NCBI GenBank assembly: GCA_913064725.1
Contig: CAJYAI010000009.1
Span: forward strand, 1-58,799
DNA from: an uncultured Alteromonadaceae bacterium
Lineage (GTDB): Bacteria; Pseudomonadota; Gammaproteobacteria; Pseudomonadales; Halieaceae
Direction: 5' to 3'
DNA: 58,799 nucleotides
A model generated the notes under the pieces. It was not told where the DNA came from, searched no databases, and saw only the letters and a program-made list of their open reading frames with translations. How positions within the stretch are numbered: position 1 is the first letter of the stretch; each line of letters starts with the position of its first letter. This document shows, in pieces, positions 1 through 49,420 of the stretch. The position numbers were made by a program, and so were the translations under genes.

Positions 1-1307
1 CGTTGCTGTGCTCTCAGTACCGGTTTCATTAGGTATGAAAGGACAGTTTTGCGCCCCGTGAGAATATCGACGTCCACCGTCATGCCAGGAATGATCGGCT
101 GCTCGGGTCCAAAGTCCACATTTCGAGTCCTGACAGTCACCTCGTAGTAGGGCTCGTCCTCACTATCTAACAGCGTATCAGCACCAATCTGTTCGATAGT
201 GCCCTCCACACCGCCATAGACAACAAAATCGTAGGCCGTGAACTTGACGTTTGCCTCCTGACCCGGGGCTAGGAAGGCAATATCTTTGGGTTTTATTTTC
301 ACCTCGAGCAACAACGTATCGTTTGCCGGAACAAGCTCAACCATATCTCGTCCGGGCAGCACAACGCCGCCCACGGTGTTGTAGTGCAGCTGCTTAATGG
401 TCCCCGCTAAGGGGGCAGTGACCTCTGTGTCACTGACGCGATCGCTGAGGCCGGCGCCAGCCTGTGACAAGGCCGCTATTCGATTGTATGTCTCAGCCAA
501 CTTTTCTCGGGTCTCGTTAAGAAACTCGAGCCGCACCGTTTCAATGTTACTGCTCGCCTCCTGCACCGACGCTTCAACCCGTCTGATACCCGCTCGCACC
601 TGCTGTAGCTCGCCCGTCGCTCTGTTAACTTCACGTTCCAGACGAAGTATCTCAACTTGAGAGGCGGCCCCTGATGCGACTAGAGGTCTCGTGACATCAA
701 GCTCATCTCTTGCCAGGGAGGCTTCAGTAACTAACTGATCCCGTTTAGCCTGCAGTTCAAGCAGCTCTTCCTCCCGCTGTCGTTTTTGCCGACGCGCAAT
801 TAATTCCTGTGTCTCGAGCTGAGTCCGACTGGTTTGAAACAGTTTTAGCTCCTCAGACACGACCTGTGGCGCTAATGCGCGCATGACAGAATCGGGCTCA
901 AAATCGCGCCGAGAGACCAAGGCGTCTAAACGCAAAGCCCGTATCTCAAGCCCCTGCCGCTCAGCCTGATTTTCACCCAGCGAGGCCTCTGAACGGGTTC
1001 GATCCAACCGCACAAGCACCTGTCCACGCTCGACGATATCACCCTCAGTTACCAGTATCTCCTGAACGATACCGCCGTCTTGAGAGCCGATCACCTGCAC
1101 CTGACTAGAGGGAATGACTTTGCCAATACCGCGCGTAACCGTATCTATACTGGCGAGGGCACTCCAGAGTAAAAGGCAGATGAGCACAGCGAATACGGCG
1201 TAGACAAGACGCCGCGCATGAGTCGGCTCTTGCTCGATAATCGCCTCATCAGATAACTCACTCCAATCGCGCCTAACTGCGTCGCTTGCTGATTGCGCCT
1301 CAGACAT
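1..1307 (-). CDS. HlyD/LapC-family type I secretion membrane-fusion protein (partial)
   Basis: Periplasmic adaptor linking the inner-membrane ABC transporter to a TolC-type outer-membrane channel. I read it directly from the minus strand. The ATG at 1307 overlaps the stop of the upstream ABC transporter by 8 bp, so the two are translationally coupled. The protein begins MSEAQSASDAVRRDW, has one membrane segment at about residues 34-53, then the biotinyl-lipoyl-like half (GSQDGGIVQEI...EGDIVERGQVLVRLD). A long, charged Glu/Gln/Arg-rich coiled coil follows, then the family's C-terminal signature (GMTVDVDILTGRKTVLSYL, then MKPVL). Only the last few residues and the stop lie beyond position 1. 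The secreted substrate and the outer-membrane partner are not in the window. The ABC partner is of the LapB/RtxB type, so a large RTX adhesin is a plausible cargo (inference). Confidence 0.93.
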   Translation of the reverse strand, partial: MSEAQSASDAVRRDWSELSDEAIIEQEPTHARRLVYAVFAVLICLLLWSALASIDTVTRGIGKVIPSSQVQVIGSQDGGIVQEILVTEGDIVERGQVLVRLDRTRSEASLGENQAERQGLEIRALRLDALVSRRDFEPDSVMRALAPQVVSEELKLFQTSRTQLETQELIARRQKRQREEELLELQAKRDQLVTEASLARDELDVTRPLVASGAASQVEILRLEREVNRATGELQQVRAGIRRVEASVQEASSNIETVRLEFLNETREKLAETYNRIAALSQAGAGLSDRVSDTEVTAPLAGTIKQLHYNTVGGVVLPGRDMVELVPANDTLLLEVKIKPKDIAFLAPGQEANVKFTAYDFVVYGGVEGTIEQIGADTLLDSEDEPYYEVTVRTRNVDFGPEQPIIPGMTVDVDILTGRKTVLSYLMKPVLRAQQ

Positions 1308-44608: not shown

Positions 44609-44767
44609 CGCTGTCTCACACTGGGTCCGTCATTCTGTGCCGTTTTTCAATCACGACCAACACTCGCATAAGCTCCTAGCAAAGCGCCTCTAATTCTGAT
44701 AGCTTCGCGTCCGCGATTGCGCAGGTCAACTGCGATTCACTCAGTTTGCGCTTCAATGGAAATCCAA

Positions 44768-45535
44768 ATGGCAACGAAAAAGACGACAGAAACAACCACC
44801 CAAGTAAAAGCGACGCCGAAGGCGAAAGCTGCACCCAAGGCCAACGCAGCGCCCAAAGCAAAAGCTGCACCCAAAACAAAAGCTGCGCCCAAAGCGGCAG
44901 TGGCTCCTAAGGCCAAAGCAGCGCCCAAAGCAAAAGCTGCGCCCAAGGCAAAAGCTGCGCCCAAAGCGACAGCGGCTCCTAAGGCCAAAGCTGCGCCCAA
45001 AGCAAAAGCTGCGCCCAAAGCGACAGCAGCTCCCAAGGCCAAAGCTGCGCCCAAGGCAAAAGCTGCGCCCAAGGCAAGCACAAAGTCCTCGTCTAACGTT
45101 GCACGTGCCGTTGGCCAGGTCCAAAAGTTCGATAACTTTAAGCCATATAAGCCATCCCGCGGCGAGAGCTACATGAACAGTGAGCAGCTCGAGCACTTCA
45201 GGCAATTGCTCCTTTCTTGGCGATCGGATCTGGTGAACGAGGTGTCCAAGACAGTCGGACACATGAAAGACGAGGCCGCAAACTTCCCCGATCCGGCTGA
45301 TCGAGCGACACAAGAAGAAGAGTTCAGTCTTGAATTGCGAGCACGAGATCGTGAGCGCAAGCTAATCAAAAAAATTGATGGGACGCTGGAACGTATTTCT
45401 ATCGACGACTATGGTTACTGCGACGCATGCGGTATCGAAATCGGCGTTCAACGACTCGAGGCTAGGCCCACCGCAACACTGTGTATTGACTGCAAAACAC
45501 TCGCGGAAATCAAGGAACGCCAAGAGCTGGGTTAA
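44768..45535 (+). CDS. dksA: RNA polymerase-binding factor DksA with long Lys/Ala/Pro repeat N-terminus
   Basis: Binds the RNA polymerase secondary channel and, with ppGpp, controls rRNA and biosynthetic promoters. The core (about residues 120-255) is a canonical DksA: coiled coil with tip FPDPADRA (D175, D178) and a four-Cys zinc finger C218/C221 and C239/C242, then [11 protein letters not shown]. Odd: about 85 residues of AAPKAK-type hexapeptide repeats (residues 21-104) precede it, making the protein 255 aa instead of ~150. The extension is extremely basic and resembles AlgP or histone H1 tails. Start chosen at ATG 44768 (MATKKTTE); ATG 44756 is a near alternative. Operon with gluQ. Confidence 0.93.
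44828..45079 (+). repeat. 18-bp in-frame tandem repeats encoding AAPKAK
   Basis: Fourteen units of 18 bp (gctgcgcccaaagcaaaa and variants) in frame inside dksA, encoding AAPKAK with single replacements ([36 protein letters not shown]). Synonymous variation among units (gca/gct/gcg, aaa/aag) shows some age, but several neighbouring units are nearly identical, so copy number is probably still unstable. Confidence 0.95.
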
Positions 45536-46485: not shown

Positions 46486-47865
46486 ATGCTGACGGTTCTC
46501 TTACTCGATGATGATCCCATAAGTGCGACGCACACCGCGGATGACCTCTCCGCAGAGGGTCTCAAAGTGATTAAGGCGTCCCCTTTCTCGGCGCTTGGGG
46601 CCATTAAATCCGCTGAACGAGTCGATGTGGCTATTCTGGATCCCGGTAGAAACGAGGCCGGAGCAAGCCAGTTAATTGCTGATTTACATCCTGTACCCGT
46701 ATTCGTGCATGCCCAGCATGCGTCATTGCGTTCGGCAGTTGATCTCATGAAAGCAGGCGCCAAAGATTACTGGGCAAAGCCCGCACCCATAAAGGACGTT
46801 CTGGAAGCCATTAGACAGGCGGGATCGGGGGCTATCGCAAAACCAGACAAATCTGCAGTTGCCGTCGAAGCGTTTGTTGGTAAATCCACTAGCATGCGAA
46901 AGCTTATGAGCATGGCAAGTAAGGCTGCGAGAGCGAGCTCCACCGTCTTAATCATTGGAGAGACTGGCACTGGCAAAGAATTGGTTGCCCGCCATATTCA
47001 TCAGACAAGTGACCGCGCCAGCAAACGCATGGTCTCGGTCAATTGCGCCGCCATACCGGAGACGCTAATCGAGTCAGAACTTTTTGGCTACGAGAAAGGT
47101 GCTTTCACCGGCGCCAATGCGCAACGGGTGGGCTTAATCGAAGCCGCCGATGGTGGAACGCTTTTTCTCGATGAGATTGGCGAGTTACCGCCCTCTGCTC
47201 AGGCTCGGTTACTGCGATTCATTCAAGAGGGTGAGATAAGGCGAATTGGCTCGGTGGAAAGCGCCAGCGTAAATGTGCGCCTTATATGCGCGACCCACCG
47301 AAACTTGGTTGAACTCGAAAATACTGACGCCTTCCGCAGGGATCTATTTCACCGCATTAACGTCCTTCGCCTAGAACTGCCGCCGCTTCGGGAACGAGGC
47401 AATGACATTGAGGGCCTGACGAACTGGCTCCTAACGCGTGTTGCTGGTCGGTTAGGTTTAGAAGTTAAGCCGCTCACAAGCGGTGCCAAACAGGCTCTAA
47501 CAGCCTATAAATGGCCGGGCAACGTTCGTGAGCTAGAACATACCTTAGAGCGAGCACTCGTTATGGCTGAGAGTGATGTCATCAGCGGCAGTGATCTGAA
47601 TCTCCCGGTAACACAGATCGTAACGGAAACAGATGATAGCTCACCGATGCTCGCATCATATTCTGATCAAGATACCACCTTTGCACAAAACGATGAGGCC
47701 GGAGAGCTTTCCCTCGAAGAATACTTTCAACGCTTTGTCTTGGAAAACCAACACGCCATGAATGAAACCGAGCTAGCACAAAAGCTCGGAATCAGCAGAA
47801 AATGCCTGTGGGAGCGAAGACAACGGTTTGATCTGCCACGTAACCGCAAAAAGGGTGCAGCATAA
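46486..47865 (+). CDS. CbrB-like sigma54-dependent response regulator (no sensor partner)
   Basis: NtrC-family activator: degenerate receiver (about residues 1-120), AAA+ domain (about 130-365) with Walker A GETGTGKE, the sigma54-contact loop GAFTGA (about 205-210), LFLDEIGELPP and R-finger segment FRRDLFHRINVL, and a Fis-type HTH (ELAQKLGISRKCLWERRQR). The receiver keeps the acidic pocket LLDDDP, an Asp at 52 (AILDPG) and the Lys in YWAKPA, but the switch Thr/Ser position is Ala (VHAQHASLRS). The segment ASLRSAVDLMKAGAKDY closely recalls CbrB, and the position between gluQ and pcnB is that of cbrB in Pseudomonas. No histidine kinase gene is adjacent (gap to gluQ is 89 bp). Likely target: the sigma54 promoter just downstream. 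Confidence 0.88.
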   Translation: MLTVLLLDDDPISATHTADDLSAEGLKVIKASPFSALGAIKSAERVDVAILDPGRNEAGASQLIADLHPVPVFVHAQHASLRSAVDLMKAGAKDYWAKPAPIKDVLEAIRQAGSGAIAKPDKSAVAVEAFVGKSTSMRKLMSMASKAARASSTVLIIGETGTGKELVARHIHQTSDRASKRMVSVNCAAIPETLIESELFGYEKGAFTGANAQRVGLIEAADGGTLFLDEIGELPPSAQARLLRFIQEGEIRRIGSVESASVNVRLICATHRNLVELENTDAFRRDLFHRINVLRLELPPLRERGNDIEGLTNWLLTRVAGRLGLEVKPLTSGAKQALTAYKWPGNVRELEHTLERALVMAESDVISGSDLNLPVTQIVTETDDSSPMLASYSDQDTTFAQNDEAGELSLEEYFQRFVLENQHAMNETELAQKLGISRKCLWERRQRFDLPRNRKKGAA

Positions 47866-47886: not shown

Positions 47887-47914
47887 GTAACAACAGGGGT
47901 TTAGTTTCGTAACA
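47887..47914 (+). promoter_or_regulatory. Possible activator-binding sites (paired GTAACA) upstream of sigma54 promoter
   Basis: TTCGTAACA occurs at 47884-47892 and again at 47906-47914, a 22-bp phase (two helical turns), about 75-100 bp upstream of the -24/-12 element, where enhancer sites for NtrC-type activators usually lie. GTAACA is the half-site that I recall for Pseudomonas CbrB (TGTTAC-N14-GTAACA). Here the two are direct rather than inverted, so the match is partial. Confidence 0.45.
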
Positions 47915-47987
47915 CTTCTGTCATGAGACAATCACGAAAAGCCATTCGGAATTTATAAAGCTTTGTTTTTATTGAAAAAATATTGAG

Positions 47988-48003
47988 TGGCACGGCAAAT
48001 GCA
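47988..48003 (+). promoter_or_regulatory. Sigma54 (-24/-12) promoter
   Basis: TGGCACGGCAAATGCA matches the RpoN consensus TGGCACG-N4-TTGCW at every conserved position except the first T of TTGC. GG is at 47989-47990 and GC at 48001-48002, with exact spacing. It predicts a start at about 48014. It lies 123 bp after the sigma54 activator gene and upstream of the predicted sRNA, and is one of the cleanest regulatory sites in the window. Confidence 0.9.
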
Positions 48004-48013
48004 ACGATTACGA

Positions 48014-48104
48014 CAGAGCCAGAATAAAAATAAGCGGCCGAATAAAAATAATATGCGTCACTACGGACCTGGGCGGGGAAGGCAACTTCCCCCAGTTTCT
48101 TTTT
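48014..48104 (+). ncRNA. Predicted CrcZ-like Hfq-binding small RNA
   Basis: A ~90-nt transcript is bounded by the sigma54 promoter and a strong terminator, with no ORF that has a ribosome binding site. It contains two copies of GAATAAAAATAA (48022-48033 and 48040-48051), each holding the AAnAAnAA 'CA motif' recognised by Hfq together with Crc in Pseudomonas. Genomic slot (after a cbrB-like gene, before pcnB) and sigma54 control equal those of Pseudomonas CrcZ, which relieves carbon catabolite repression by titrating Hfq. It is much shorter than CrcZ (~400 nt). Homology rests on synteny and motifs, not on sequence identity. It may partly read through into pcnB. Confidence 0.72.
48069..48104 (+). 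terminator. Rho-independent terminator of the predicted sRNA
   Basis: GGGGAAG (48075-48081) pairs with CTTCCCC (48086-48092) around a GCAA tetraloop, extended with a bulge by CTG/CAG (48069-48071 / 48093-48095), followed by TTTCTTTTT (48096-48104). Confidence 0.92.
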
Positions 48105-48160
48105 ACCTATCTACCTCTTGACTTGATAAGATCGGTGTAGCCCTAATCGAGTCACCTAAT

Positions 48161-49420
48161 TTGCACACCATCGATTCCAGCGAACTGATTGACGCATCTG
48201 CACTGTCGAAGGCGGCCGTCGCCGTTGTGGCACGCTTAGTGGATAATGACTACAACGCCTATATCGTCGGCGGCGCCGTGCGAGACCTACTACTAGGTAA
48301 GCGCCCTAAAGATTTTGACGTTGCGACAAACGCAACGCCAGAGCAGGTAGTCGCCTTGTTCAAAGGGGCAAGGATTATTGGTCGCCGCTTCCAGATTGTT
48401 CATGTGCGCATGGGCCGAGAAATCATAGAGGTAACGACATTTCGGGGACACCATAGCGACGATACGTCAAAGGTGTCAGTTAAATCCGAGAACGGCTTGC
48501 TCTTGCGAGACAACGTTTATGGAACTCTTGATCAGGACGCGGCGCGCCGAGATCTCACGATTAACGCACTCTATTTAGACCCCCGAAAAAAAGTAATCCT
48601 AGATGATCTGGGCGGCTTAGAGGACATCGAGTCTCGTTTAATCCGAATCATTGGCAACCCTGTTACTCGCTACAGTGAAGATCCGGTTCGGATGCTTCGT
48701 GTGGCCCGTTTTGCCGCAAAGCTCGGCTTTTCGATTGATAAAGACAGCCTTGATGGGATAGCTCAGTGCCGTCATCTTTTACTGGACATTCCGGCAGCGC
48801 GACTTTTTGACGAGACACTGAAGCTGTTTATGGCCGGCGCAGCTGCACCGACCATCGAGTCTCTTGACAGACATAACTTACTTGAACCGCTTTTCCCCGC
48901 GGCAGTAGATTCCATGATGGACGCTGCGGCGCGCGCATTGATTGTTACAGCGATGCGAAATACCGATGCCCGAATTGACCGAGGAAAGCCGGTAACACCG
49001 GCTTTCTTATTAGGCGCGCTGCTCTGGCCTGCTGTGGAGTCTAAGAGCCGCGAATTGGTAAAGACGGGTAACCAAGAGGGCTCTACTGTGAACGCCGCGG
49101 CTCAACAGGTACTAGCTATCACTCTGCAGCGAGTTGCCATCCCCAAACGATTCTCCATTCCCATGAGAGAAATATGGGAGCTGCAGCCCCGTCTTGAAAA
49201 ATGTGCCTCCAAGCGCGCCAAGTCAGTGATATCACAGCGGCGATTCCGCGCTGCATTCGACCTATTATTGTTGCGCGCCGATGAGCGAGATGAGCTCCGC
49301 TCCGCGATAGCATTTTGGGAGGAACAGCAACAGCTATTTCCCGAATTAGTGGGCAGTCAGCCCGGCACCGAAATTCCGTCCCGAAAGCGACGACCGCGGC
49401 GGCGAAAGCCCAGCACATGA
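48161..49420 (+). CDS. pcnB: Poly(A) polymerase I PcnB
   Basis: Adds 3' poly(A) tails that mark RNAs for decay. Nucleotidyltransferase motif AYIVGGAVRDLLLGKRPKDFDVAT, RRFQIVHVRMG, the RRDLTINALYLD segment and the RNA-binding RMLRVARFAAKLGF; the C-terminal tail is very basic (RKRRPRRRK). 419 aa. TTG start at 48161: rare start codons are common for pcnB and keep expression low (family knowledge). The ATGA overlap with folK at its end shows coupling. A TTGACT hexamer at 48118-48123 may be part of its own promoter, but no matching -10 is clear. Confidence 0.94.
   Translation: MHTIDSSELIDASALSKAAVAVVARLVDNDYNAYIVGGAVRDLLLGKRPKDFDVATNATPEQVVALFKGARIIGRRFQIVHVRMGREIIEVTTFRGHHSDDTSKVSVKSENGLLLRDNVYGTLDQDAARRDLTINALYLDPRKKVILDDLGGLEDIESRLIRIIGNPVTRYSEDPVRMLRVARFAAKLGFSIDKDSLDGIAQCRHLLLDIPAARLFDETLKLFMAGAAAPTIESLDRHNLLEPLFPAAVDSMMDAAARALIVTAMRNTDARIDRGKPVTPAFLLGALLWPAVESKSRELVKTGNQEGSTVNAAAQQVLAITLQRVAIPKRFSIPMREIWELQPRLEKCASKRAKSVISQRRFRAAFDLLLLRADERDELRSAIAFWEEQQQLFPELVGSQPGTEIPSRKRRPRRRKPST

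Follow-up and report, generated by a model that had tools for sequence, protein, structure and literature searches.

The window, by which we mean the whole stretch of 58,799 nucleotides analysed here, is contig 9 sequence and part of a Luminiphilus (Halieaceae) genome of 2.63 Mb that is 98% complete. The locus of interest reads dksA, gluQ, a gene for a sigma-54 activator of 459 amino acids, the gene for a predicted small RNA, pcnB, folK, a deoxynucleoside-kinase-like gene, panB and panC, the last three names having been assigned by eye. The activator is taken as the CbrB orthologue from the gene order dksA-gluQ-(cbrA)-cbrB-pcnB together with its DNA-binding part. The small-RNA gene and its control region occupy positions 47887–48105, flanked by the CbrB-type activator gene and pcnB, and comprise a pair of CbrB-type half-sites, then an IHF-like site and a sigma-54 promoter, followed by two (A-R-N)4 runs and a terminator (Table 1). 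A consensus scan for a sigma-70 site 5' of pcnB found none; by eye, TTGATAAGATCGG at 48123 looks like an extended -10 element. At the other end of the locus, DksA (44762–45110) bears a long, repeat-bearing N-terminal extension rich in Lys, Ala and Pro, with the DksA domain at residues 138–246, and a similar extension is present in the Halieaceae relative L212.

Table 1. Features of the predicted small-RNA locus, in window coordinates.
Feature	Position	Strand	Remarks
CbrB-type sigma-54 activator, 459 aa, response-regulator receiver	46486..47865	+	gluQ directly 5', no cbrA between
CbrB half-site R1, GTAACA	47887..47892	+	subsite sequence from PMC6296734
CbrB half-site R2, GTAACA	47909..47914	+	22 bp downstream of R1
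IHF-like site TAAAGCTTTGTTT	47956..47968	+	consensus scan, suggestive only
Sigma-54 -24/-12 promoter TGGCACGGCAAATGC	47988..48002	+	sequence match and conservation
Predicted small RNA	48014..48105	+	start at about 48013–48015 from promoter spacing, end within the T tract; both inferred
A-R-N run 1, AAU AAA AAU AAG	48023..48034	+	predicted Hfq distal-face site
A-R-N run 2, AAU AAA AAU AAU	48041..48052	+	predicted Hfq distal-face site
GGACCTGG element adjoining the terminator	48065..48072	+	GACCTGG part common to several other families
Intrinsic terminator: 7-bp stem, GCAA loop, TTTCTTTTT	48075..48104	+	
pcnB, next gene	48161..49420	+	start codon TTG according to the ORF list

An earlier note on this DNA had placed a -24/-12 element upstream of the RNA. 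The element is indeed present there and recurs in all 30 aligned Luminiphilus relatives, where TGGCA and TGC are kept throughout and the intervening spacer varies. It is the sole exact match to TGGCAYGNNNNWTGCW in the window and, judged by sequence only, belongs to the GG-N10-GC type that is a trait of CrcZ. With one mismatch allowed, the pattern occurs five times in the window against 3.0 expected; the match alone is thus not beyond chance, and the case rests on conservation and context. The 30 loci were chosen by CbrB similarity, and two further ones, L066 and L067, for which the best match is a paralogue, were excluded from the CbrB set.

The two half-sites and the IHF-like site had escaped the first reading. 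CbrB subsites have been described as one forward (TGTTAC) and two reverse (GTAACA) copies spaced 20–25 bp apart, with IHF between (PMC6296734). In 30 of the 31 Luminiphilus loci scored, GTAAC pairs lie 101–104 and 80–82 bases before the GG, the remaining one (L014) having them at -113 and -91. The forward half-site, GTTAC at about -124, is missing from all 31, and it is present at -122 to -126 in 20 of 20 CbrA-bearing Halieaceae loci, some of which show GTTAC instead of GTAAC at -105 or have no middle site. At L049, the locus of a Pseudomonas-like genome (G056), half-sites lie at -124, -104 and -81, and the IHF-like site lies at -32, as in Luminiphilus. The distance of this last site from the promoter is constant in the 31 Luminiphilus loci and L049; it was found with a loosened form of what we take to be the IHF consensus and is suggestive only. 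The composite pattern GTAAC-14..20-GTAAC-66..86-TGGCAY-6-TGC returned one match each in 31 of 37 genomes of the genus and none in the other six, and its reversed control returned a single match across all 58 genomes. For G045 (L060) the promoter match is located about 2 kb 3' of cbrB. A separate case is L051 (G041), where two sigma-54 promoters with half-sites, at +125 and +516 after cbrB, perhaps serve two RNAs.

Downstream of the promoter, the two A-rich motif copies and the GCAA-loop terminator with its T-rich tract described in the earlier note were both recovered, and each recurs in 30 of 30 aligned relatives. The motif GAATAAAAATAA is found at 48022–48033 and 48040–48051. Its degenerate form AAYAANAAYAA has five matches in the window against 0.35 expected, a number reached by none of 100 shuffles; two of the five are the RNA motifs. 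The hairpin, GGGGAAG-GCAA-CTTCCCC at 48075–48092, is followed three bases on by the tract with eight T in nine positions. Beside it stands GACCTGG, which several families share and which occurs again in the second module of the longer forms described below.

The alignment of the 30 loci has 95 columns and a mean identity of 85%, and every locus carries the promoter, both motifs and the hairpin, so that the loss of promoter or motifs in close relatives, which the earlier note had named as evidence against the RNA, was not seen. Run 1 reads AATAANAATAA, with all four bases occurring at N. Its changes fall almost exclusively at the N positions (columns 18 and 21); the exceptions are one locus with the T changed and one with the A changed at column 22, the other seven A columns being fixed. 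This is the pattern expected of an A-R-N site for the distal face of Hfq. With L. syltensis added, exactly two AAnAAnAA motifs stand between promoter and hairpin in 31 of 31 loci, and 30 of them have two A-R-N runs that reach four triplets or more, L062 having one. Taken over its full length, the RNA shows no more stable folding than its shuffles (z 0.02). Consensus folding yielded ten pairs, seven in the terminator, which forms the sole stable conserved stem, and three in a weak GCC/GGC pairing; none is changed on both sides, and we therefore claim no structured RNA body. As a candidate conserved small ORF we considered the frame opening at ATG 48053 (22 residues in the window) and rejected it, since it closes after two codons (ATG TCA TAA) in 8 of the 30 aligned loci.

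To place the locus more widely, 84,980 genomes were scanned for the 3' element CGGACCTGGRYGGGGAAGNNNNCTTCCCC. The 45 exact matches are nearly all from Luminiphilus or Halieaceae, the other titles being Haliea sp., HTCC2080, Proteobacteria and Gammaproteobacteria. The cbrB–pcnB slot proposed in the earlier note holds in the window and in 41 of these matches, which have CbrB upstream; at the other four (L072, L073, L086 and L111) the end of the stretch is too near to show it. In 31 of the 45, the distance up to gluQ is roughly the length of a CbrB gene, too short to hold cbrA as well; another 13 stretches end too early to tell, and L097 (Haliea) encodes a CbrA between gluQ and cbrB, with 47% identity to the CbrA of G039 across 994 residues. 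By eye, the gap between RNA and pcnB at L027 and L030 holds short direct-repeat arrays of the TTCAGACCCTA and TTTCCCGGCC..TTAACAC types.

The position of all 45 matches just 5' of pcnB (tblastn) would also suit a leader or attenuator, in which the sigma-54 transcript normally passes the hairpin and tunes poly(A) polymerase. In the window pcnB starts 69 bases past the hairpin, and in most of the 20 loci of other Halieaceae the first hairpin has, by eye, a poor T tract. However, the pcnB match begins anywhere from about 100 to 740 bases downstream, varying by genome, and the window terminator has a good T tract. A leader would leave the A-R-N runs without purpose, and Pseudomonas crcZ, which occupies the same slot, is a free RNA according to the literature. 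We regard a leader function as very improbable.

A covariance model was built from the alignment of the 30 Luminiphilus loci; in the window it matches 48012–48105. Among 140 genomes of the family it matches 129, namely 52 of the 57 Luminiphilus genomes and 77 of the 83 from other genera. When the 30 genomes that supplied the model are left aside, 99 of 110 match, and for genomes with completeness of 90% or more and contamination of 5% or less the figure is 77 of 78. From the 77 matching genomes of other genera, 19 were fetched, and the RNA lies between cbrB and pcnB in each of them. Of 293 genomes drawn from the order, 36 give a match to the model, comprising 12 Halieaceae and 24 members of other families. 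These 24 matches are weak (E-values from 3e-7 to 5e-3), so that the slot, and not the score, is the evidence: 22 are in the cbrB–pcnB slot (21 of the 23 newly fetched, and G046). One of the two exceptions, G183, has two matches, each with a sigma-54 promoter and half-sites, and neither CbrB nor pcnB in the fetched stretch; the two copies (L270 and L292) are perhaps CrcX/CrcY-like. The other, G362, bears the same family label as the Pseudomonas-like G056 and has no promoter by the rule used.

Twenty further loci of other families were chosen by CbrB similarity. Sixteen show a promoter with half-sites, followed by AAnAAnAA motifs above the level of shuffles (P ≤ 0.03). The remaining four show no such RNA by the promoter-motif rule: L041, L042 and L055 have no promoter by that rule, with motifs visible by eye at L042, and L043 has a spurious promoter without motifs. 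CbrA orthologues (E 2e-197 or better) were identified beside CbrB in 17 of 21 other-family genomes, among the matches listed; one of the 17 is G056, and 13 also show a CrcZ-like RNA by the rule used. Passages of two publications describe CbrAB as exclusive or unique to the Pseudomonadaceae (PMC6296734, PMC8871633). By the present gene comparisons, however, CbrA-CbrB and predicted CrcZ-like RNAs are found across many families of the order, a spread that the first reading did not include, and Hfq/Crc-type carbon catabolite repression may therefore operate in many marine heterotrophs.

No CbrA orthologue was identified in the 37 Luminiphilus genomes (12 with a completeness of 90% or more), the best value among the matches listed being 6e-35. 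The listed matches of the genus fall in the kinase part, with one exception in G010. There, a frame of 1,156 amino acids gives a full-length match at 23% identity; this CbrA-like transporter-kinase (L194, contig 50, 10153–13161, minus strand) shares its contig with the RNA, about 8 kb past pcnB, and the stretch fetched from this genome does not include the CbrB receiver. Distant transporter-kinases (31% identity or less) also adjoin a true CbrA elsewhere, and we therefore read the G010 protein as a paralogue, which could serve as a substitute sensor in that genome. For the other Halieaceae, CbrA is known from the fetched loci only, and it stands beside CbrB in 20 of 20, including L212, where it has no transporter part: in this genome (G070) the cbrA place, 1536–2748, encodes a PAS/kinase-like protein of 404 amino acids that lacks the sodium-symporter part; the neighbouring CbrB is intact.

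The receiver of CbrB differs along the same line. Five residues (two acidic, D, T and K) are intact in all 37 loci with CbrA or its kinase part, 20 from Halieaceae and 17 from other families, and the receiver is altered in all 31 Luminiphilus loci. Three groups, set by sequence and not by a tree, can be told apart. The group of the window has T changed to A in 12 of 12, with the phospho-acceptor D kept in the window; the group of HTCC2080 and L. syltensis has the phospho-acceptor D changed to E in 9 of 9; and the third has D changed to G, T to L and K to R in 10 of 10. Compared with CbrA-bearing Halieaceae, mean identities are 32, 57 and 20% for the receiver in the three groups, 60–63% for the AAA+ part and 70–74% for the C-terminal part. 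Among other-family loci without an adjoining CbrA, L052 (G050) and L058 (G048) have E for D and L050, from a 75% complete genome, is intact; the E of L052 and L058, as in the HTCC2080 group, may be a convergent phosphomimic.

Control by a CbrA/CbrB phosphorelay, a mark of the CrcZ class, was thus not found in Luminiphilus. The search gave no CbrA orthologue there and the receiver has changed in three ways, while the DNA-binding part, the promoter and the RNA are conserved, and none of this was part of the first reading. One might suppose a relic, an RNA no longer made or relevant after the loss of CbrA, given that no orthologue appears among the matches listed for the 37 genomes and that the receiver is altered at 31 of 31 Luminiphilus loci. 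Such decay is hard to reconcile with the strong conservation of the RNA and with a C-terminal part of CbrB at 70–74% identity to CbrA-bearing relatives versus 20–57% for the receiver, and we consider it very improbable.

A different and more tentative proposal, possible although we would not count on it, is that a CrcZ-type decoy has become independent of CbrA sensing in Luminiphilus, where a CbrB that cannot be phosphorylated in the usual way would drive a minimal two-site RNA. An uncoupled activator is plausible because CbrB has been described as barely dependent on phosphorylation (PMC6296734); the distant CbrA-like protein in G010 slightly lowers the likelihood. If the proposal is true, carbon catabolite repression would be a set point, or would follow another input to the pseudo-receiver, and an RNA with two A-R-N runs, which would suffice for two Hfq hexamers, would rank with the smallest Hfq/Crc sponges in nature. 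The lack of CbrA, matched by the change in the CbrB receiver, also offers a natural experiment on how far CbrB activity needs phosphorylation.

The partners expected of a CrcZ-type RNA were found in the genomes. Hfq is present in 35 of 37 genomes of the genus, and the copy in the genome of the window shares 62 of 72 residues with P. aeruginosa Hfq; RpoN is present as well. Most genomes of the genus encode two Crc/exonuclease-like proteins. The first keeps all eight active-site positions checked, in 20 of 20 aligned sequences, and its nearest PDB entry is a Neisseria exonuclease. The second, on contig 28 of the genome of the window, has five of the eight positions changed, compared with four in P. 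aeruginosa Crc, and is encoded between rph and pyrE, as is the 87%-identical Crc of G056 (rph and pyrE identified by eye). In the 47-row tree its neighbours are altered Crc-like proteins from other families, and Pseudomonas Crc is placed elsewhere; given the rph-crc-pyrE order, positional orthology is better supported than the tree. Hfq and Crc are thus both present, the latter assigned by position and altered active site.

Taken together, we consider it probable that the RNA is a one-module, two-site CrcZ-type decoy of Hfq/Crc. CbrB bound at the two GTAACA half-sites, aided by IHF bending, would activate sigma-54 polymerase at 47988, and a transcript of about 90–95 nt would terminate at the hairpin. 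Each (A-R-N)4 run would then bind the distal face of one Hfq hexamer, with Crc; two runs of four triplets could hold two hexamers, although presumably less tightly than the six triplets of amiE. Hfq/Crc would be drawn off catabolic messengers with similar runs at their start regions, relieving carbon catabolite repression. In Pseudomonas, CrcZ lifts the preference for favoured foods. Since a CbrA orthologue was not found and the receiver is changed, the output of the RNA in Luminiphilus is probably set by the levels of CbrB, RpoN and IHF and not by a CbrA signal. A genome-wide search for AANAANAANAA returned 152 sites, with an uninformative palindromic control. Among 20 sites inspected, one clearly overlaps a ribosome site, before a gene identified by eye as DoxX-like, so that no regulon is seen.

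Part of the RNA is more conserved than a decoy would need. The stretches AGAGYC, GGCC and CGGACCTGG are nearly invariant in the 30 Luminiphilus loci, which exceeds the needs of a pure decoy, and the decoy model gives no explanation for GACCTGG beside the hairpin. Both features would be accounted for by a base-pairing class II Hfq small RNA of the ChiX kind, whose A-R-N runs anchor it on Hfq and whose single-stranded AGAGYC, CGGCC and CGGACCTGG stretches pair with messengers; GACCTGG, too, recurs in other families and in second modules. Yet beyond the genus, inspection by eye shows neither AGAGYC nor CGGCC to be preserved, and the terminator makes up much of the GC-rich conserved sequence. Promoter, activator, slot and the Crc/Hfq partners, moreover, match CrcZ, and we judge a base-pairing role unlikely, if less so than the leader or the relic. 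As a decoy, the 95-nt form would be a small object for a direct test of how many A-R-N sites a working decoy needs.

The earlier note had proposed a short functional analogue of CrcZ outside the Pseudomonadaceae. The slot, the promoter type and the A-R-N motifs agree with this proposal, as do the Hfq, the RpoN and the positional orthologue of Crc identified here; the RNA is not a local form, being found in several families, no CbrA orthologue was found in the genus, and the Rfam CrcZ model (RF01675), a check suggested in the note, gave no match in the window, nor in the interval in a permissive search. A search of the whole genome with this model was likewise without a match, and its controls were silent too. 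As a positive control, L049 of G056 scored 306.8 bits in the same slot, the sole match in 15 loci scanned; this match opens with a pair of A-R-N runs separated by 10 nt, and a GGGGAGC/GCTCCCC hairpin lies close to its other end. In the open-access literature, the titles and abstract openings of the leading results mention no CrcZ-like RNA in Halieaceae and no CbrB without CbrA. The relevant excerpt of a study of a mesopelagic community mentions cbrA and cbrB transcripts and does not name the RNA there (PMC5073097).

CrcZ of P. aeruginosa is 407 nt long, carries six (A-R-N)n runs with n of at least 4, binds the Hfq distal face and titrates Hfq (PMC4063720); the A-R-N geometry and the decoy model have also been described (PMC6422490). 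Among known systems, Pseudomonas CrcZ, with CrcX and CrcY, comes closest to the Luminiphilus RNA. Shared with CrcZ are the cbrB–pcnB slot, the sigma-54 promoter, R1/R2 half-sites and an IHF-like site at equal distances, (A-R-N)n runs, including a 5' pair separated by about 10 nt, a GC-rich terminator, and a genome that also encodes Hfq, a Crc-like protein and RpoN. It differs in size, with about 95 nt and two runs versus about 400 nt and five or six runs, and in having no Rfam match, no CbrA orthologue and no forward half-site.

Also close is the two-module RNA of other Halieaceae described here, the first module of which has the same A-R-N arrangement and GGACCTGG hairpin. Unlike Luminiphilus, 17 of the 20 loci compared (all except L195, L196 and L212) have more A-R-N runs past the first hairpin, and in 14 of these 17 GACCTGG occurs a second time. 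Compared in this way, the Luminiphilus RNA looks like the first module of the longer RNA closed by a terminator, and the short form may have arisen by loss from it.

ChiX-type class II Hfq small RNAs present A-R-N runs to the Hfq distal face and act by base pairing. They share such runs with the RNA described here but are neither located in the cbrB–pcnB slot nor under CbrB. RsmY/RsmZ and CsrB titrate RsmA/CsrA via GGA motifs. The decoy logic is the same, repeated sites drawing off a global translational repressor, a parallel to which CrcZ has been compared before (PMC4063720), whereas the proposed target of the Luminiphilus RNA is Hfq, bound via A-R-N runs.
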